Source: Domibacillus indicus
GTDB taxonomy: Bacteria; Bacillota; Bacilli; Bacillales; Domibacillaceae
Direction: 5' to 3'
Length of the DNA stretch: 64,000 nucleotides
NCBI RefSeq assembly: GCF_000970685.1
Contig: NZ_LAJB01000003.1
Coordinates: 372,001 to 436,000, forward strand
Positions 26,777-61,626 of this stretch are shown here, in pieces (within the stretch, counting starts at the first letter, position 1; every line of letters starts with the position of its first letter). A model generated the notes under the pieces. It ran no database searches, was not told where the DNA came from, and saw only the letters and a program-made list of their open reading frames with translations. A program made the position numbers and the translations under genes.

Positions 26777-27106
26777 ATGTCGATTGGAGAACGTATTCGG
26801 AAATTGCGTGTCGAGCAAAAGCTGTCTTTGACCGAACTGGCGTCGCGGGCGTCGGTGGCAAAGTCGTATCTTTCATCTGTAGAACGGGACTTACAGATGA
26901 ATCCCTCTATTCAATTTTTGACAAAAATTGCCTCGGTGCTGAATGTGTCTGTTGAGTCACTCATTGCTGAACCACAGAAATCACCCGAAATGGTCGATGA
27001 TGAATGGGTTACTTTAGCAAAAGAAGCAATGGAATCGGGTATCAGTAAAGAGCAATTCCGGGAATTTTTAGAGTTTCAAAAATGGAAGAAACAATCAGGA
27101 GAATAA
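26777..27106 (+). CDS. sinR: SinR-like transcriptional regulator (copy 1)
   Basis: 109-residue regulator. An N-terminal HTH_3 domain (IGERIRKLRVEQKLSLTELA, AKSYLSSVERDLQMNPSIQF) closely follows B. subtilis SinR, and the C-terminal SinI/SinR dimerisation helices (DDEWVTLAKEAMESGISKEQ, FREFLEFQKWKK) are complete. SinR represses biofilm matrix genes and is inactivated by binding SinI. The start at 26777 has AAGGGTGAT just upstream. It is not next to a sinI gene, unlike in B. subtilis. TATAAT-like and GTTCATTCTTTGATAA-like elements upstream hint at regulation by the same family, weakly. Confidence 0.9.
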   Translation: MSIGERIRKLRVEQKLSLTELASRASVAKSYLSSVERDLQMNPSIQFLTKIASVLNVSVESLIAEPQKSPEMVDDEWVTLAKEAMESGISKEQFREFLEFQKWKKQSGE

Positions 27107-29008: not shown

Positions 29009-29635
29009 ATGTATTACAGTAAATTACGGGCAAAAGCACGCGCTTCGCTCAAAGGAAACTGGCCGATCGCTGTAGGTCTTTTCATTGTCTCTATGCTTCT
29101 CGCTGGCGCTCCCGAGGTTATTATTAATCCAGACGAATACGACTTTTCCTGGAAAGATATCGCAGTACTCGCTTTTTCGATTTTGTTTATTCCAATGACA
29201 ATCGGCTTAGTTTGGGCATGGGTGGATTTATCACGCGGCCAAAAGATCGGGTTTGCCCAATTGATTGAGCCATATAAAACCATGTTTGGCAAAAGCATTC
29301 TCGTATCACTGCTTCAAGGCCTGTTTTTATTTTTCTGGTTCCTGCTGCTTTTTGTTCCTGGCATTGTTAAATCTTTTTCTTACATGATGACGTATTACAT
29401 TTTACGTGATGAACCCGGGCTTTCCCCGCTGCAGGCTATTACAAAATCACGGAGAATGATGAAAGGCCACAAAGGAGAAGCATTTGTGCTCGGCCTTTCC
29501 TTTATCGGATGGATTCTGCTCGGAATTGTCACCCTTTTCATCGGCTTTCTTTGGATCGCTCCTTACATGAGCGTGACATATGCCCATTTCTACAATACGA
29601 TTCGGGCAGAGTATGAAGAAAACAACGCATTTTAA
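29009..29635 (+). CDS. DUF975 family membrane protein
   Basis: About 208 residues with five to six membrane spans. It begins MYYSKLRAKARASLKGNWPI, the family N-terminus. Later blocks are TYYILRDEPGLSPLQAITKS and RRMMKGHKGEAFVLGLSFIG. Function unknown; such proteins are common as lone genes in Firmicutes. Two ATGs are possible (29003 and 29009). AAAGGTGG touches the first and has proper spacing to the second. A perfect terminator follows. Confidence 0.82.
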   Translation: MYYSKLRAKARASLKGNWPIAVGLFIVSMLLAGAPEVIINPDEYDFSWKDIAVLAFSILFIPMTIGLVWAWVDLSRGQKIGFAQLIEPYKTMFGKSILVSLLQGLFLFFWFLLLFVPGIVKSFSYMMTYYILRDEPGLSPLQAITKSRRMMKGHKGEAFVLGLSFIGWILLGIVTLFIGFLWIAPYMSVTYAHFYNTIRAEYEENNAF

Positions 29636-29662
29636 ACGGCTCAGATAACTGAGCCGTTTTTT
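29634..29662 (+). terminator. Terminator of the DUF975 gene
   Basis: AAACGGCTCAG / CTGAGCCGTTT stem, 4-nt loop, T run. Confidence 0.93.
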
Positions 29663-29696
29663 AGCGATAAGCAGAAAGTAAAAAATCCCTTGTAAT

Positions 29697-29750
29697 ATAT
29701 GTCTGAATAGAAAGATAAATTCGACAATTTATTCAAACATATGGTAGAAT
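29697..29750 (+). promoter_or_regulatory. Promoter with inverted repeat upstream of sinR copy 2
   Basis: TCGACA (29721-29726), 18-nt spacer, TAGAAT (29745-29750). The inverted repeat ATATGTCTGAATA (29697-29709) / TATTCAAACATAT (29730-29742) has one mismatch and brackets the -35, so it may be an operator. It is unlike the GTTCTTT boxes. Confidence 0.45.
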
Positions 29751-29833
29751 TTTTTGGAGAGATCGATTCATTTTTATAATGCTTTCTAAAAAACATGTCT
29801 GGAATAAAACAAATAAAAAGGCAGGAGATAGCA

Positions 29834-30160
29834 ATGTCCATTGGCGAGAGAATCCGATCGTTTCGTCTTGAAAAAGGGATGACACTGACTGAACTGGCTG
29901 CCCGGTCTGAGACAGCCAAGTCGTATATTTCTTCGGTCGAACGCAACATTCAATTAAATCCTTCTGTTCAGTTTTTAACAAAAGTATCGCGGGTACTTGA
30001 CATTAATTTAAATCAGCTTTTGGATGAATCTGCCCGTGAAACCGGATCAGGGTTAGACGAGGAATGGATGATGCTTGCCAGAGAAGCAATGGAATCCGGA
30101 ACAAGCAAAGAGCAGTTTAAGGAATTTCTGGAATTTCAAAAGTGGCAGAAAGCCCATTGA
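29834..30160 (+). CDS. sinR: SinR-like transcriptional regulator (copy 2)
   Basis: 108 residues, with the same architecture as the copy at 26777: HTH_3 (IGERIRSFRLEKGMTLTELA, AKSYISSVERNIQLNPSVQF), then the SinI-type dimerisation region (DEEWMMLAREAMESGTSKEQ, FKEFLEFQKWQK). The two copies are clearly paralogues that differ most in the linker. Start at 29834 with GGCAGGAG. A SinI-like gene lies just downstream on the opposite strand, so this could be its target, in a convergent arrangement instead of the B. subtilis sinI-sinR tandem. Confidence 0.9.
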   Translation: MSIGERIRSFRLEKGMTLTELAARSETAKSYISSVERNIQLNPSVQFLTKVSRVLDINLNQLLDESARETGSGLDEEWMMLAREAMESGTSKEQFKEFLEFQKWQKAH

Positions 30161-30186
30161 GCCCGTTACGCTTTCCTTTCATAACG

Positions 30187-30231
30187 AAAAGCAGCCGGTC
30201 TCTGGCGGATCAGCTGCTTTCAGTTTATACG
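30187..30231. terminator. Hairpin between convergent sinR copy 2 and the sinI-like gene
   Basis: AAAGCAGC / GCTGCTTT arms about 27 nt apart; T tracts on either side are short. A weak bidirectional terminator is possible. Confidence 0.45.
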
Positions 30232-30251
30232 TATATAAATGATGAGAAACG

Positions 30252-30389
30252 TCAATCTTTTCTATGCTCCTCTTGATGTGCTGTTTTTAAAAACTCTCTT
30301 ATGTCCTGGACTGACAAGCCCAATTGCTTCGCTTCAGACAGTAAACTGACCCATTCTTCCTCAACGGTATGAATTTCAAGCCTATCCAT
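30252..30389 (-). CDS. sinI: SinI-like antagonist peptide (45 aa) downstream of a c-di-GMP-type leader
   Basis: 45 residues that are almost only a SinI domain: VEEEWVSLLSEAKQLGLSVQ, then DIREFLKTAHQEEH. In B. subtilis, SinI binds SinR through this helix-turn-helix hook and takes it off DNA; the same is inferred here. The start at 30389 has GGGAGGAG at about 10 nt. The longer open frame (to 30443) overlaps the aptamer and has no SD. There is no DNA-binding part. The leader upstream resembles a GEMM-I riboswitch, so synthesis of this antagonist may follow c-di-GMP. Confidence 0.8.
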   Translation of the reverse strand: MDRLEIHTVEEEWVSLLSEAKQLGLSVQDIREFLKTAHQEEHRKD

Positions 30390-30410
30390 CTTACGGCTTC
30401 TCCTCCCGCT

Positions 30411-30493
30411 TTCGGCAGCACAGCCATCCAAGCATACGTTCACTTTAGGATCTGTAACTTTGCGCCCTTACTTTTCAGTAAGTTTTCCCTTGT
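30411..30493 (-). ncRNA. c-di-GMP-I (GEMM) riboswitch-like leader of the sinI-like gene
   Basis: Reverse-strand order: AAGGGAAAACT, a perfect hairpin CTTACT-GAAA-AGTAAG (30467-30482), GGGCGCAAAGT, ACAGATCCTAAAG, then GTATGCTTGGATGGCTGT and GCTGCCG. This follows the GEMM-I order: AAA-rich joiner, GAAA-capped P1b, (A/G)CGCAAAG, CCTAAA, and a 3' GATGGCTG...GCTGCC strand. ACAG/CTGT and ATCC/GGAT pair in the second stem. The SD lies directly 3' of the aptamer, suggesting translational control. The 5' GGGAAAAC deviates from the usual GGCAAAC, so confidence is moderate. Confidence 0.6.
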
Positions 30494-30510
30494 CACATTT
30501 GTTTTTTATT

Positions 30511-30539
30511 CATATAGAAACATCACAGCGTGTTGTCAG
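30511..30539 (-). promoter_or_regulatory. Promoter of the sinI-like transcription unit
   Basis: Reverse strand CTGACA (30534-30539), 17-nt spacer, TATATG (30511-30516). It places the RNA start about 10 nt upstream of the riboswitch-like leader. Confidence 0.5.
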
Positions 30540-30591
30540 ACTTTTTAAAATATTTTATGTTCATCTATTTGCCTCATTTTATATATTGAAT

Positions 30592-31836
30592 TTATCCCTG
30601 TTTCTGTGCCTGCTCTTCTCTGCCATTATCACCTTCTGCCTGCTTTATCACTTTCGCATATACGTTCACCAGCTGATTCATTACCGGCTTTTCAGAGAAG
30701 AAAGTGTAAGTAAATAGTTGAGCCTGCCTGGCTGTTACCAATCGGATTACCTGGTTTGAAAGAATGGTTTTTGTTTTAACAATAAACTGTTCATTCGTCT
30801 CAGCAAGCATTGCTTCTTTTCCGCTTATAAACTCAATGCCTTCGTTTGCGGTATGGCTCAGGATAATCGGGCAGCCCATAGCAGCCGCTTCCAATAGAAA
30901 GTGCTTTTGTCCGCAGCCGAATCGAAGCGGACAAACATAAGCCGCGGCCTTGCTTACAGATGTGCGTATACGTTCTTTTTCTTCTATTAAAGATACTCCC
31001 TCTTCTGTAAGAAGTTTTTGTATATCAGGAGAAGGATTAGTCCCCACGATCCAGCATTTGAGCTCTGGAAAAGATCTTTTTAACCCTGGATAAATATCTT
31101 TTACAAGGCGGATGGCTGCGTCCGCGTATTCCGGTTCATTGATCGGTCCTGAAAAAATAATAGCTCTTTCCTTCGGAATACGGAGATCAGCTGCAAAAAG
31201 CGATTCTTCTATATAATTTGGCACAATGTCGAGCTTTTCAATGGTGACTGGTGCCACCTGGCGTTGATCCGCCCCGGGTGAAATAATATGATTCAATCCG
31301 CGTTTTTTTAAAAAAGATTCATATTTTCGAACTCGTCCCAGTTCGCCTCGTCTGGCGGCTTTTTCAATTAACTGGCTTGTCCACCTGTAACGCCTTTCCT
31401 GGCTGAAGCGAATCGGATCGACGTAATCGACAACAACAGGCTCTATCCAGCTGTCTATATCAGGGAAGTTATGTACCATATTGGATTGAATATGAATAAT
31501 GTCAAAGCAGACTTCCTGCCTGATATGCTTAATTATTCTCCGGATTTCCGGAAACGAATGCTGTGCTGCATTTAGTGGATAACGCTTAAATAAGTAGGCT
31601 TTCAACATAGCAAAATAAAGAGAGCCTGTTTTTTCCGTATAAATACATTCCGCTCCGCAGTGGATAAGCTCTTCTCCCTCTACAAGGCAAATCGAATCAT
31701 TCTTCTGAAATAGGCAATATACAAAATAATCTCTTTTTAGCAGACTGTTAATTTGCTGATACGCCCTAATTTGATCAGTTGACCCGTCGAAAGATGGACG
31801 TTTTTGTGCAATATATAAAACGTTTATCTTTACCAC
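30592..31836 (-). CDS. Glycosyltransferase, GT4/GT1 fold
   Basis: 414 residues, GT-B fold. N-terminal half INVLYIAQKRPSFDGSTDQI. C-terminal half carries a nucleotide-sugar site: IIFSGPINEPEYADAAIRLV, SKAAAYVCPLRFGCGQKHFL and LEAAAMGCPIILS. The E-x7-E-like motif is partly replaced (FGCGQKHFLLEAAAMG), as in the TIGR03087/stp1-like branch. Likely transfers a sugar during polysaccharide or glycoprotein synthesis. It stands alone, 11 kb from the eps operon, yet its promoter carries the same 16-bp palindrome. GTG start. Confidence 0.82.
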   Translation of the reverse strand: MVKINVLYIAQKRPSFDGSTDQIRAYQQINSLLKRDYFVYCLFQKNDSICLVEGEELIHCGAECIYTEKTGSLYFAMLKAYLFKRYPLNAAQHSFPEIRRIIKHIRQEVCFDIIHIQSNMVHNFPDIDSWIEPVVVDYVDPIRFSQERRYRWTSQLIEKAARRGELGRVRKYESFLKKRGLNHIISPGADQRQVAPVTIEKLDIVPNYIEESLFAADLRIPKERAIIFSGPINEPEYADAAIRLVKDIYPGLKRSFPELKCWIVGTNPSPDIQKLLTEEGVSLIEEKERIRTSVSKAAAYVCPLRFGCGQKHFLLEAAAMGCPIILSHTANEGIEFISGKEAMLAETNEQFIVKTKTILSNQVIRLVTARQAQLFTYTFFSEKPVMNQLVNVYAKVIKQAEGDNGREEQAQKQG

Positions 31837-31846
31837 CCCGCCCTTT

Positions 31847-31883
31847 GTTCTATTTAAAGAACAATTATGAGGTGATTATAACA
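31847..31883 (-). promoter_or_regulatory. Extended -10 promoter with SinR-type operator (lone glycosyltransferase)
   Basis: Reverse strand TGTTATAAT (extended -10, TATAAT at 31875-31880). The palindrome GTTCTTTAAATAGAAC (31847-31862) sits about 12 nt downstream, where a bound repressor would block initiation or clearance. Confidence 0.65.
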
Positions 31884-31923
31884 CGTGTAGATTGCTAAAT
31901 TAATAGGCAATATCACCTATTTT

Positions 31924-31939
31924 ATTCTTGATAAAGAAC
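31924..31939. promoter_or_regulatory. Second SinR-type operator upstream of the lone glycosyltransferase
   Basis: ATTCTTGATAAAGAAC, two differences from GTTCTTTATAAAGAAC, about 77 bp from the operator at 31847 (start to start). Confidence 0.5.
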
Positions 31940-32324
31940 AAAATAGGCGATAAAAATTATATCTCAAAAAAAAGACATTGGTTTGTACATTATATTGAAC
32001 AAAGAAGGCCTAAGTACGATTCTTTGTGCTTGTTGAATGGATTCTTAAAAGTGAACAGAAAAACATATTCCCAGTTAGCCGGCAAAAAAACCCATTCTCA
32101 AAATTTTCTTTATCTAAGCGAGGAAAAGCTCGAGCTTGAGTTGTTTTCAGAAAACAAACCGGTTTATAAAACTGTCATTTAAATTTAACGCAGATGGACC
32201 ATAGTATTTCTATGCACAGCTATCTTTGCTGCTGTATAGAACATACCCAAATGGGAAAGAGATTCGCCAAGAGGATATTCCGTTTTTGAGTTAAAATTAT
32301 CTTCTTTTTATCAGCTAGAAACTT

Positions 32325-32575
32325 TAAAAGAAGTATCAGGGGCTGCGGTCTGCCGGCTACGCTTTCCTGCAGGGCGAACGCTGAACCAGCCATCGCTTTG
32401 CGCTGCCTGTTTCACCCTGTCCGCTCGTCCTGCGGGAGTCTTCGGCGGCAGGCGCGGGGCGTAGACTCCAATGGGACTAGCAGGGCAGCTGAGATCGGTG
32501 GAGCCGGCAGGCGGAGACGAGCTCAGCGCCGGCCCCATGGAACGCGAAGCTCCGCTTCACTCACCCGGGCTAAGC
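32325..32575 (+). repeat. GC-rich dispersed repeat, copy B (both modules)
   Basis: Module 1 (about 32325-32450) contains AAAAGAAGTATCAGGGGCTG and GGGCGAACGCTGAACCAG (32372-32389). Module 2 (about 32450-32565) contains GGGGCGTAGACTCCAATGGG and AGACGAGCTCAGC. Both match copy C on the opposite strand. No protein-coding sense is seen. It fills most of the gap 31940-32667. Confidence 0.8.
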
Positions 32576-32667
32576 ACTGTTCTCATACGCTTTTTTCGGG
32601 GTACAGTCTGTAAAATCATTTGTTCCATTATAAAGTAAATGACTTTGTCTACAAGCTGAAGAATCCC

Positions 32668-32826
32668 CTATTTAAATAGAGGATTCTTTTCTTCTTTCTG
32701 GCCGCATTTCAGAAAATGCCGCACCTCATCTGGCTCTAGACCTATTTCTCTCGCTTGCTTCATTAACTCTATCCATTCCAGATCCATTCCAGATTTGTCC
32801 AATGCTTTCCGCTCCTTTAATTTCAT
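32668..32826 (-). CDS. SinI-like antagonist peptide, second copy (52 aa)
   Basis: 52 residues: a basic N-terminus (MKLKERKALDKSG), then a SinI domain (MDLEWIELMKQAREIGLEPD, EVRHFLKCGQKEEK). The hook pattern LEWxxLMxxAxxxGLxxxEVRxFL matches SinI and the C-terminus of SlrR. No DNA-binding domain. Start at 32826, with AGGGA 8 nt upstream; an internal ATG (32787) is possible. No riboswitch-like leader was recognised here, in contrast to the 30252 gene. A stem AGAATCCTCTA / TAGGGGATTCT straddles its stop codon. Confidence 0.72.
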   Translation of the reverse strand: MKLKERKALDKSGMDLEWIELMKQAREIGLEPDEVRHFLKCGQKEEKNPLFK

Positions 32827-33058
32827 CCTTTCTTCCCTGCCTTTACCGGTAAAAATAGCTGGCAAGTGCTTTCTGGCTGCTTTATTAAGAATTTATTTTT
32901 CTTTCATGAAACTATTATATTAACCAGATTACTATTTATGCCTGCTATTTTAGCAGTTACTATAAACATAAATGTTACTTCCAAGTAATATACTTGCATT
33001 ATGCCAGACATATTTCCATTGTACAACACGAAATAATCTAATTTTCTGCTTTTTCATT

Positions 33059-33085
33059 TAAAAAACTGTCCCAGTTTCCGGGACA
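33059..33085 (-). terminator. Terminator of the ATP-grasp gene
   Basis: CTGTCCC / GGGACAG stem with a 7-nt loop; six T follow on the reverse strand. Confidence 0.88.
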
Positions 33086-33094
33086 GCTTTTCTT

Positions 33095-34315
33095 CTACTC
33101 TCTTTGCGTTAATTGGTCATACTCCATACAGTTTAAAATATCCTCTACTTCTTGATCATCCCGGCCAAGGACAAGCCCGATAATTTTTGATGGACCTTCA
33201 GCACCCTCTACGCAGGCAGCATCGAGAAGGCTGAGCGGGATAAATTGTTCCTGATCCATGTACTTTTCAACAACTGCCAGCCCCTCCTCGAACCAGCCGT
33301 ACCATTCAAGGCAGGATAGCCGGACAGATGGCTTGTTAGATAAGCCGCGTATAGTTTCATAAAGCATAAGGCCGCATGAGGAAGCATTAAAACGCACATT
33401 CAAATCAATAAAATAAAATTCATCTCCGCGGATCAGTACATCAAAACCGGCTACTCCTGTGTACCCCGCTGCCGCGATATTTTGCATAACCTTTAGTCCT
33501 GCTTCAACAACTCGTTCGAATGGAGCCGCTTCTGTGCTGATCCAGCTGCCGCGGAAGCAGTTATCCTGATTGACGACCTGTTCAGACTTGCCCAAAAACC
33601 GGACATTGCCAAACTGGTCTGCTGCATAATGAAAACCAAAATTCCGCTCGTATTCTATATATTCTTCTAAAATGATGGTTGATAAGTCACCAAAATCTTC
33701 ATTTATATTATAAAGCTGTTCCTTTCTTTCAATAAACAGCACACCACACCCGCCGGATGTAGGGCGTCCGTCTCCTGTTTTTAAAATAAAAGGCATAGGC
33801 GGCGTATTTTCCAGCAGTTCATCCAGGCTTACCATTCTTCTTGGCGGAACATGCTCCGCAGGAACAAGAGCCGGAATACTGCGCTTATCGCTTAAATAAG
33901 CAATGATAGATGGATCAACCCAATAAAGAGGTGCCGGAGCATCTTCAGGAGGATGCGGGTATTGAAAAATAACTTTTTTGCCTTGCAAAGACAACTTCTG
34001 CAAAATAGATACATATTCTTTGTCGTTCCGGTACGTGTAACGGAAAGACGGCAAATGCAGACCCGCTTTTTCAAGCAAACGAACGGCACCAGGCGTTACA
34101 GTGCCTTCATGGCAAATAACCGGCATTTCTCCGGCTACCCCAAGCTCTCGTCCGGTTAATGCTTCAAGACTAAGTAAATCGCCTCCAAAGTGTTCATAAT
34201 CATGTGCAAATAATTTCGGCGAGTATACGTATCCTTTTCCATAAATATCTTCCGAACTTTGCTCGGGTTGAATCATACCTATAAAAGAATGAAACGGCCA
34301 TGCTCTTTCCCCCAT
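33095..34315 (-). CDS. ATP-grasp domain ligase of unknown substrate
   Basis: 406 residues. The C-terminal two thirds carry an ATP-grasp fold: MPFILKTGDGRPTSGGCGVL (ATP Lys and glycine-rich loop), IILEEYIEYERNFGFHYAAD, FLGKSEQVVNQDN, and the Mg-binding end VAGFDVLIRGDEFYFIDLNV plus RFNAS (Asp/Asn ligands). The family joins a carboxylate to an amine or thiol via an acyl-phosphate. The N-terminal 110 residues are not recognised. The substrate could be an amino acid or peptide, but nothing fixes it. SD AAGGAAGGTGG at 6 nt. It is a single-gene unit; a cre-like site overlaps its likely promoter, so carbon-source control is possible. Confidence 0.8.
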   Translation of the reverse strand: MGERAWPFHSFIGMIQPEQSSEDIYGKGYVYSPKLFAHDYEHFGGDLLSLEALTGRELGVAGEMPVICHEGTVTPGAVRLLEKAGLHLPSFRYTYRNDKEYVSILQKLSLQGKKVIFQYPHPPEDAPAPLYWVDPSIIAYLSDKRSIPALVPAEHVPPRRMVSLDELLENTPPMPFILKTGDGRPTSGGCGVLFIERKEQLYNINEDFGDLSTIILEEYIEYERNFGFHYAADQFGNVRFLGKSEQVVNQDNCFRGSWISTEAAPFERVVEAGLKVMQNIAAAGYTGVAGFDVLIRGDEFYFIDLNVRFNASSCGLMLYETIRGLSNKPSVRLSCLEWYGWFEEGLAVVEKYMDQEQFIPLSLLDAACVEGAEGPSKIIGLVLGRDDQEVEDILNCMEYDQLTQRE

Positions 34316-39163: not shown

Positions 39164-39192
39164 TTTACTTTTTCCGATAAGCATAGTAAAAT
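39164..39192 (+). promoter_or_regulatory. Promoter of the acyltransferase/beta-helix operon
   Basis: TTTACT (39164-39169), 17-nt spacer, TAAAAT (39187-39192). A SinR-type box begins on the last bases of the -10. Confidence 0.6.
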
Positions 39193-39227
39193 TCTTTATA
39201 ACGAACATATCGTTCTAAAAAAAGAAT
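39191..39227. promoter_or_regulatory. Two tandem SinR-type operators
   Basis: ATTCTTTATAACGAAC (39191-39206) and GTTCTAAAAAAAGAAT (39212-39227) lie 21 bp apart start to start, two helical turns. They cover the transcription start region and are close to the perfect palindrome at 55582. Confidence 0.65.
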
Positions 39228-52399: not shown

Positions 52400-53587
52400 T
52401 TATTTAGTTACTGCTTTCTTCCACATTGAACTAAGCGACTGCTCCTTGTAATAATGCTCTATAACTGAAATAACCCGGTCCTGCTCCTGGCTCGTCATGC
52501 TTGTGCCGGAAGGAAGACAGAGGCCTGTTTTAAACAAGCGGTCTGATACGCTGTCTTCTTCGCTGTGCGGTATGTAGCGGCAATGGCGGAATAAAGGCTG
52601 CCTGTGGAGCGGCTTCCATACATGCCTTGCTTCAATATTTTCCTCCTCCAGCCTTCTGATCAGGCCGCTGACACTAAGCTGGTCAACCGTCAATGTGGTA
52701 AGCCAGCGGTTAGAGCGGCTTTCCTCTACTTCCGGCATAAAATGAAAGCCCTCTAGACGGCTCAATGATTCTTTATAACGAACAAACAGAGCGCGTTTTG
52801 CCTCCACTCTTTCCTCCAGGACATCCATCTGGGCAATGCCAATACCGGCGAGAATATTGCTCATCCGGTAATTGAAACCTGTTTTTTCATGCTGGTAATA
52901 CGGAGCCGGCTCCCTGGCCTGAGAAGCAAGATTGCGTGCTTTGTCTAACTTTTTTAGGTTATTTGAAATCAGCATCCCTCCCCCCGAAGTGGTAATAATC
53001 TTGTTTCCATTAAAAGAATAAATACCAAACTCTCCAAAACTCCCACTCTTTCTCCCCTTATATTCTGTACCAAGTGACTCGGCTGCATCTTCTATAATGG
53101 GCACCTGATAATGGCCGCAAAGCGCTGAAAGCTCATCCATTCTGGCATTTTGTCCATATAAATGAACAACAATTACCGCTTTGGGCAGCCGATTTTCTTT
53201 TTTGGCCTGGATGAAGGCCTTCTCCAGTGCCTGAGGAGACATGTTCCAGGAGCCTTCATCCGAATCAATAAACACCGGCTCCGCCCCCTGGTAAACGATT
53301 GGATTGGCGCTGGCAATAAAGGTAAGAGTAGAGCAAAAAACCGTATCCCCTTTTTCAACCCCGAGCTGTATAAGTGCCAGATGAATGGCAGCCGTTCCGG
53401 AATTAACAGCTACCGCCCCCCTTGTCCCGGCGTACGCCGCTGCTTTTCGTTCAAATTCATCCACATGCGGTCCAAGCGGAGCAATCCAATTCGTCTGGAA
53501 TGCCTCGTTCACATACCATTGTTCCTTTCCACTCATATGGGGCGGTGATAAAAGAATTCGTTTTTCCGTCTTTGAAGAAAAGGCCAT
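52400..53587 (-). CDS. DegT/DnrJ/EryC1 aminotransferase (EpsN-like)
   Basis: About 395 residues. PLP-dependent sugar aminotransferase acting on a 4-keto sugar nucleotide. VNEAFQTNWIAPLGPHVDEF, AAIHLALIQLG, FIDSDEGSWNMSP, VVHLYGQNARMDEL, IIEDAAESLGTEYKGRKSGS, and the PLP lysine in SFNGNKIITTSGGGML. With the upstream CapD-like dehydratase it would make an amino-deoxysugar (for example bacillosamine-type). The ATG at 53587 is preferred over the GTG at 53596, which touches the SD. Confidence 0.93.
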   Translation of the reverse strand: MAFSSKTEKRILLSPPHMSGKEQWYVNEAFQTNWIAPLGPHVDEFERKAAAYAGTRGAVAVNSGTAAIHLALIQLGVEKGDTVFCSTLTFIASANPIVYQGAEPVFIDSDEGSWNMSPQALEKAFIQAKKENRLPKAVIVVHLYGQNARMDELSALCGHYQVPIIEDAAESLGTEYKGRKSGSFGEFGIYSFNGNKIITTSGGGMLISNNLKKLDKARNLASQAREPAPYYQHEKTGFNYRMSNILAGIGIAQMDVLEERVEAKRALFVRYKESLSRLEGFHFMPEVEESRSNRWLTTLTVDQLSVSGLIRRLEEENIEARHVWKPLHRQPLFRHCRYIPHSEEDSVSDRLFKTGLCLPSGTSMTSQEQDRVISVIEHYYKEQSLSSMWKKAVTK

Positions 53588-55496: not shown

Positions 55497-55512
55497 GTTC
55501 TTTATAAAGAAT
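55497..55512. promoter_or_regulatory. SinR-type operator 1 (on the eps promoter)
   Basis: GTTCTTTATAAAGAAT, one change from the perfect palindrome. On the reverse strand it begins on the base after the eps -10, covering the transcription start. Confidence 0.8.
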
Positions 55513-55541
55513 ATTATAGGAGGTCGTTTTCCATTTGTAAA
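55513..55541 (-). promoter_or_regulatory. Promoter of the eps operon
   Basis: Reverse strand TTTACA (55536-55541), exactly 17 nt, TATAAT (55513-55518), 67 nt upstream of the first eps start codon. Confidence 0.85.
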
Positions 55542-55581
55542 CTGAAATCTTGTCCGTATATTTACACCGAAACAAAAGTTT

Positions 55582-55597
55582 GTTCTTTATAAAGAAC
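55582..55597. promoter_or_regulatory. SinR-type operator 2 (perfect palindrome)
   Basis: GTTCTTTATAAAGAAC, 85 bp from operator 1 and 82 bp from operator 3, about eight helical turns each way. Confidence 0.8.
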
Positions 55598-55663
55598 GAT
55601 TTTTTTGGTAAAAACAGTATATCACATTCGTTTACACCGGATAATAGGTATTAAGAATCAATT

Positions 55664-55735
55664 GTTCTTTAAAAAGAACAATTCAACTTTTTTTACGATT
55701 ATATCATGTTTTATTTTCATTTTGTGCGTTATAAT
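55664..55735 (+). promoter_or_regulatory. SinR-type operator 3 and promoter of the SinR-like gene
   Basis: GTTCTTTAAAAAGAAC (55664-55679) lies 50 bp upstream of a TATAAT (55730-55735) that serves the rightward regulator gene. No strong -35 is present. Autoregulation is inferred. Confidence 0.6.
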
Positions 55736-61505: not shown

Positions 61506-61519
61506 GATGTTTTTCCTCC

Positions 61520-61600
61520 CGGGCAGCTGGCTGGCATACCGTGCGGCTTAGCCCCTATAGCTTTGCGTCTCTGCATTTCCACAGATTTGCTTCAATAAAG
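61520..61600 (-). ncRNA. c-di-GMP-I (GEMM) riboswitch upstream of the subtilase gene
   Basis: Reverse-strand order: GAAGCAAATC, CTGTGGAAATGCAG (GAAA-capped P1b), AGACGCAAAGCTATAGGGGC, CTAAG, CCGCACGG, TATGCCAGCC, AGCTGCCC. This matches the GEMM-I core (GCAAAc, GAAA tetraloop, ACGCAAAGC, GGGnCTAAG...TATGcCAGCC). The 3' end runs into the SD (CCCGGGAGG), suggesting that ligand controls ribosome access. The outer P1 pairing is weak by eye. Confidence 0.82.
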
Positions 61601-61626
61601 TAAAGCAGGTGATGTTTCTGCTTCTT

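Follow-up and report, generated by a model that had tools for sequence, protein, structure and literature searches.

We identified, in the Domibacillus indicus stretch analysed here (64,000 nt; hereafter the window), a c-di-GMP-I (GEMM-I) riboswitch aptamer placed directly before a gene encoding a 45-aa stand-alone SinI-like antirepressor. As judged by comparison of sequences, this pairing is conserved across several genera. It is likely that the element constitutes a translational c-di-GMP-I switch, turned on by its ligand, and that the SinI made in response lifts the repression exerted by SinR.

The c-di-GMP-I aptamer and the SinI-like gene

The aptamer (positions 30411-30498, minus strand) was matched by the Rfam covariance model RF01051 over its full length (model positions 1-87) with a score of 53.3 bits (E = 1.4e-7), the gathering score being 35 bits. 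An earlier note on this DNA had read the leader as a c-di-GMP-type (GEMM-I) riboswitch, based on motifs in GEMM-I order with a Shine-Dalgarno (SD) sequence right after them, and had proposed a search with RF01051 as a check. The search gave a meaningful score, which bears out this reading, and all of the motifs are present in the order CTTACT-GAAA-AGTAAG, GCGCAAAG and CCTAAAG. The SD sequence GGGAGGAG (30400-30407, minus strand; read from the sequence) runs from 30407 to 30400 and starts 3 nt past the aptamer end, and the aptamer end is separated from the SinI-family gene by 21 nt. In the aligned row, the ligand-contact columns of the window aptamer are G, A and C (30488, 30461 and 30415, respectively), which we take to correspond to G20, A47 and C92 in the numbering of Vc2. 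The window aptamer therefore has the sequence, structure and ligand-contact bases of the c-di-GMP-I family, from which it differs in that it precedes a SinR antirepressor gene and has lost one base pair at the foot of P2. Its identity is established; binding of the ligand is inferred.

Two other explanations of the match were rejected. A chance match is ruled out by the Rfam score and because the aptamer-SinI pairing is conserved in relatives. The window aptamer also cannot be counted as a member of RF03167 (c-di-GMP-I-GGC), since in a narrow search it reached only 52.8 bits, which is below the gathering score of 59.

The gene following the aptamer (30252-30389, minus strand, stop codon included) is read from an ATG at 30389. 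Residues 11-35 of its product form a SinI hook (PF08671, 40.9 bits versus a cut-off of 31.4, E = 1.7e-10), which is the known SinR-binding part, and the family search revealed no HTH family above its cut-off in this protein (MerR-DNA-bind, 20.1 versus 25.4). A profile built from 19 family members finds SinI of B. subtilis (1b0n_B, E = 1.5e-11; 5tmx_A, E = 2e-11). The description of this gene in the earlier note as a stand-alone SinI-like gene is thus confirmed. In comparison with the nearest orthologue (L019, which is the same place as L048 of Domibacillus iocasae), dN is 0.11 and dS is 1.29 over 45 codons, and the peptide therefore appears to be under purifying selection. Membership of the SinI family is established, production of the peptide is inferred, and its binding to SinR and removal of SinR from DNA are inferred from the family only. 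The window contains a second SinI-only gene (32668-32865, minus strand; PF08671, 43.7 bits), for which ATG 32826 is the likelier start; no Rfam match to a riboswitch was found before this gene (32865-32668).

Other c-di-GMP-I riboswitches were also observed in this genome. The second one of the window (61519-61601, minus strand; RF01051, 65.2 bits) immediately precedes an S8-type protease gene (61505-59625; assigned from the translation, without a family search), and its distance to the start codon is short, like that of the sinI switch. Two more, about 600 nt apart (L003, 1501-1595, and L005, 1501-1588; G000:C30:29709-30500), precede small genes, one of which encodes an XRE-type HTH protein by translation; these genes are possibly a toxin-antitoxin-like pair. 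Another switch (L002; G000:C12:227677-227764), placed 5′ of a gene encoding GGDEF and EAL domains, carries, by reading, A at the G20 position.

Conservation of the pairing and the SinR-like neighbours

Relatives of the 45-aa protein were found in 34 of 61 genomes, D. indicus included. For 30 of these 34 genomes, the locus of the best match entered the first set: that of D. indicus and those of 29 others (L019-L047). Of the 29 loci, 19 have an aptamer at or above the Rfam threshold directly 5′ of the SinI-like gene (12 of 14 in one scan and 7 in a second scan, whose 16 loci included the previously scanned L031) and 10 do not. At L037 and L044, which do not count among the 19, it is another SinI-like ORF that follows the aptamer. 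The second set consisted of 32 loci from species- or genus-labelled genomes, 18 of which carry the aptamer directly 5′ of the SinI-like gene (9 in each of two scans): Domibacillus (4), Bacillus aerolatus (2), Oceanobacillus salinisoli, Oceanobacillus halophilus, a Neobacillus MAG, Pseudalkalibacillus (2), Bacillus sp. RAR_GA_16, Paucisalibacillus (3), Salirhabdus, Evansella and Robertmurraya. The remaining 14 loci of this set, in which no c-di-GMP-I match was found and whose SinI-like genes thus lack a threshold aptamer, originate from B. sinesaloumensis, B. sonorensis, B. glycinifermentans, Bacillus sp. FJAT-47783, Halobacillus (2), Thalassobacillus (2), Oceanobacillus sojae, Virgibacillus (2), Cytobacillus, Niallia and an uncultured Bacillus MAG. 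The two sets have five places in common.

All 39 c-di-GMP-I matches (34 distinct places) detected in the four locus scans, which covered only loci fetched around SinI-like genes, are situated just 5′ of a SinI-like ORF. RF01051 is present in 54 of the 61 genomes, D. indicus counted, and in none of the 14 control genomes, among which B. subtilis is named. Outside the counted loci, there is an RF01051 match 62 nt 5′ of a further SinI-like match, by coordinates alone (G042:C12:233970-234217), and the pairing is for this reason probably commoner than counted.

For a pooled analysis, 36 places were combined: the window, 22 places of the first set and 13 of the second. Three of them (L031, L034 and L043) fall below the Rfam threshold and were included via a purpose-built model, R1, constructed from 13 of the pooled places. 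In 27 of the 36 places, the 3′ flank carries a SinR-like gene no more than about 700 nt away; 12 of these genes lie on the strand of the SinI-like gene and 15 are convergent (the window row was entered by hand from the sequence). The window itself encodes two full-length SinR relatives: repressor A (26777-27106, plus strand; 1b0n_A, E = 2e-33) and repressor B (29834-30160, plus strand; HTH_3 and SinI hook; 1b0n_A, E = 2.3e-35), the latter being the convergent neighbour of sinI. The SinI hook and full-length SinR relatives are thus common to the window proteins and the SinI/SinR system of B. subtilis (1b0n). An inverted repeat, AAAGCAGC/GCTGCTTTT (30187-30220), lies where sinI and sinR-B converge and, from its sequence, is probably a shared terminator.

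The hook of the 45-aa protein would be expected to bind a SinR-type repressor, with the convergent B as the likeliest partner and A as the alternative. It is also possible, although we consider it unlikely, that the protein has a different partner, or only paralogue B, and leaves the exopolysaccharide genes untouched. Such a division of labour finds support in the coexistence of two full SinR-like proteins with the second SinI-only gene and with a further HTH gene carrying a weak SinI hook (L014; 55768-56127, plus strand; hook 19.1 bits, under the cut-off), but it has to be weighed against the SinR-binding role of the hook and the frequency with which SinR-like genes follow the pairing, in a third of the places on the same strand.

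Direction of control and integrity of the aptamer

In the translational switch that we propose, the 3′ strand of the aptamer (the 3′ side of P3 with C92 and C93) would fold onto the SD sequence at low c-di-GMP, so that little SinI would be made; a rise in c-di-GMP would close the aptamer, engage C92 and P1, and free the SD sequence. The putative ligand-free hairpin (30395-30425, minus strand) pairs the P3 3′ strand and C92-C93-G with the SD region and linker (GGCU/AGCC, CU/AG, CCG/CGG). Its core, which takes up part of the SD sequence, is seen in folds of the window, L019, L021 and L022; L020 favours other folds, without this hairpin. When the 151-nt leader of the window was folded separately, most of the hairpin was retained in the centroid but not in the MFE structure, and the fold is only slightly better than those of shuffled sequences (z = -1.56; 17 of 200 shuffles as good).

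Within the region that runs from C92 through the SD sequence, C92 or C93 is paired in 32 of the 36 places and the SD sequence is paired too in 31, with the reservation that the CC-GG complementarity of the aptamer tail and the SD sequence is partly built in, since both CC and GG are fixed. Long hairpins occur in the long-linker relatives L036, L038, L062 and L077, for which 0-2 of 500 shuffled linkers were as good. Linker pairing reaches 0.05 in only 6 of the 36 places, and the window hairpin is no better than those of shuffled linkers (0.252). According to these models, switching between the C92 strand and the SD sequence is clear in the four long-linker relatives, whereas it does not reach significance for the window. 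When the P1 3′ strand was forced to be unpaired in whole-leader folds, which is a rough stand-in for the ligand, SD accessibility rose by more than 0.05 in 22 of the 36 places and fell in 6. The direction is inferred; with folding models as its basis, translational control switched on by the ligand is the likely one.

The distance between aptamer and start codon is only 15-37 nt in the 36 places (start codons picked by script), which makes a terminator unlikely. A terminator between the aptamer and sinI was also sought in a scan of 29600-33100; none was found there on the minus strand, and there is little room for one. These observations bear on the possibility that the riboswitch is real but is an OFF switch, or operates via transcription or RNA stability, so that c-di-GMP would lower SinI or act on the transcript. 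The literature accessible to us mentions c-di-GMP riboswitches acting in either direction, and three other switches of this genome (L001, L002 and L006) are followed by what appear, by reading the sequence, to be terminator-like hairpins. Nevertheless, besides the short distance, the SD sequence is not part of P1, and opening of the P1 strand increased its accessibility far more often than it decreased it. We therefore regard this possibility as improbable and retain the ON switch acting on translation.

The structure of the aptamer was examined in an alignment of 36 sequences (35 SinI-linked aptamers and the second switch of the window). This alignment was fitted to a model and is thus biased towards structure, and P1 was added afterwards. 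In total, 90.7% of the cells pair, 18 of the 22 pairs vary on both sides, and none of 500 shuffles reached any of five covariation measures; the weakest helix is P1, with 62.5% of its cells paired. At 30486, at the P2 base, the window sequence has A where C is conserved, so that one pair is broken (A-G). Among the 36 sequences, the same pair is C-G in 31 and U-A, i.e. compensated, in 3. The window thus does not have both base pairs at the P2 foot, the second being A-G, and it passes the gathering score nonetheless; both pairs are common, yet not needed for the curated score.

This lost pair raises the question of whether the window aptamer, unlike those of its relatives, is weakened or decaying and does not respond in the physiological range. 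Of the nine RF01051 matches in this genome, the sinI switch scores lowest, and the orthologous L019 has kept C at the position in question. The chance of such decay seems small to us, given the score of 53.3 bits, the retained ligand bases and a sinI-like gene seemingly under purifying selection.

G, A and C occupy the three ligand-contact columns in 31 of the 36 rows, including that of the window; the departing rows are L032, L034, L043, L063 and the second switch of the window. A different natural ligand in this branch, e.g. the cyclic dinucleotide cGAMP, is very improbable: several relatives' aptamers exceed the RF03167 gathering score and A, presumably a mark of cGAMP, is present at position 20 in L034, L043 and L063, but the window has kept G20, A47 and C92, as have most of the aligned rows, and its genome contains 14 GGDEF and 10 EAL matches. 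The leaders of L034 and L043, which come from one genus, are degenerate and aptamer-like, precede SinI genes and have A20, to which L034 adds U at position 92; they are perhaps decaying or changed in ligand.

SinR-type palindromes and the proposed circuit

A glycosyltransferase gene (30592-31836, minus strand; PF13692, E = 7.5e-12; conserved in L048 and L049) is located directly upstream of the aptamer and shares its strand; slightly less than 100 nt separate the end of the gene from the aptamer. The scan of 29600-33100 detected no strong sigma-70 promoter on the minus strand in the gap between this gene and the aptamer. A pattern scan, performed with what we take to be the SinR-site consensus (half-site GTTCTYT), revealed two SinR-type palindromes before the glycosyltransferase gene, at 31847-31862 (1 mismatch) and 31924-31939 (2 mismatches). 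Three more lie within 55497-55679 (55497 with one mismatch; 55582 and 55664 exact), between the exopolysaccharide-type cluster (first gene 55446-53617, minus strand), which was recognized by reading translations, without a family search, and the HTH gene with the weak SinI hook.

The half-site alone is not significantly enriched in the window (26 occurrences versus 18.9 expected; 8 of 100 shuffles as high). The palindrome GTTCTYTNNARAGAAC has two exact copies in the window and never appeared in 100 shuffles; the copies at 55582 and 55664 are the only exact palindromes in the assembly, which contains 14 with at most one mismatch versus 1 for the reversed control. At L048 and L049, where the glycosyltransferase gene is kept, a palindrome lies near its start; this gene was not found at L050, L021 and L022, and palindromes are present there nonetheless. 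They are also found at loci without an aptamer upstream, e.g. L057, L066 and L067, and hence mark SinR genes generally. A 16-nt near-palindrome, ATTCTTTATAACGAAC (2 mismatches), occurs at 39191-39206 and 52768-52783, one copy being placed before an acyltransferase-like gene (from translation).

The presence of SinR-type sites before the exopolysaccharide cluster is an observation, whereas matrix output and a response in expression are inferred. Removal of SinR would lift repression at matrix genes, such as those of this cluster, and the signal would in that case probably act directly on the biofilm switch. Since the palindromes precede both the exopolysaccharide cluster and the glycosyltransferase gene upstream of the switch, a feedback loop is also suggested, without proof, in which SinR represses a transcript bearing its own c-di-GMP-gated antagonist. 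As a tentative extension, which may well prove wrong, SinR might repress the promoter before the glycosyltransferase gene, read-through from which would carry the riboswitch and sinI; c-di-GMP would set the yield of SinI per leaky transcript, and SinI would in turn remove SinR. The result would be a double-negative loop with a threshold under direct control of c-di-GMP, which would either take the place of the Spo0A input of B. subtilis or operate alongside it, and c-di-GMP-gated sinI would be a design shared widely among Bacillaceae other than the B. subtilis group.

The pairing is not entirely new. The open-access literature searched, as far as its text was available, yielded one direct precedent: an RNA-seq study of Bacillus methanolicus MGA3 lists "(c-di-GMP)-sinI" (BMMGA3_08510) as a putative riboswitch (PMC4342826). 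In the portion of that paper accessible to us, the same pairing appears as a table entry, with no mechanism, conservation or test. The c-di-GMP riboswitches of B. thuringiensis and B. cereus (Bc1, Bc2 before cap, Bc3-5 and one before cbpA) likewise belong to Bacillaceae, but their targets, according to the available excerpts, include adhesins (cap, cbpA). An unpublished array is mentioned for B. thuringiensis 407, in which sinI was up at high c-di-GMP; the text available does not claim a sinI riboswitch (PMC7793685). Nor is a riboswitch-sinI link described in the available parts of PMC10240345, whose sinI is a different gene, PMC6143707 and PMC8470499. Spo0A~P mediates the induction of SinI in B. 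subtilis, as stated in the accessible part of PMC8470499. This differs from the arrangement in the window, as does the lack of RF01051 matches in the control genomes that include this species.

The link from c-di-GMP to SinR that the earlier note had envisaged is supported by the RF01051 score, the SinI family, the pairing across genera, and the GGDEF and EAL complement, with binding and peptide production still resting on inference. To our knowledge, no direct c-di-GMP route to the SinR matrix switch has been established in B. subtilis. If the proposed switch is real, its ON/OFF logic could be tested with a single reporter, many relatives of B. subtilis would possess a direct c-di-GMP route to the SinR matrix switch, and B. 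subtilis itself may be atypical among its relatives.
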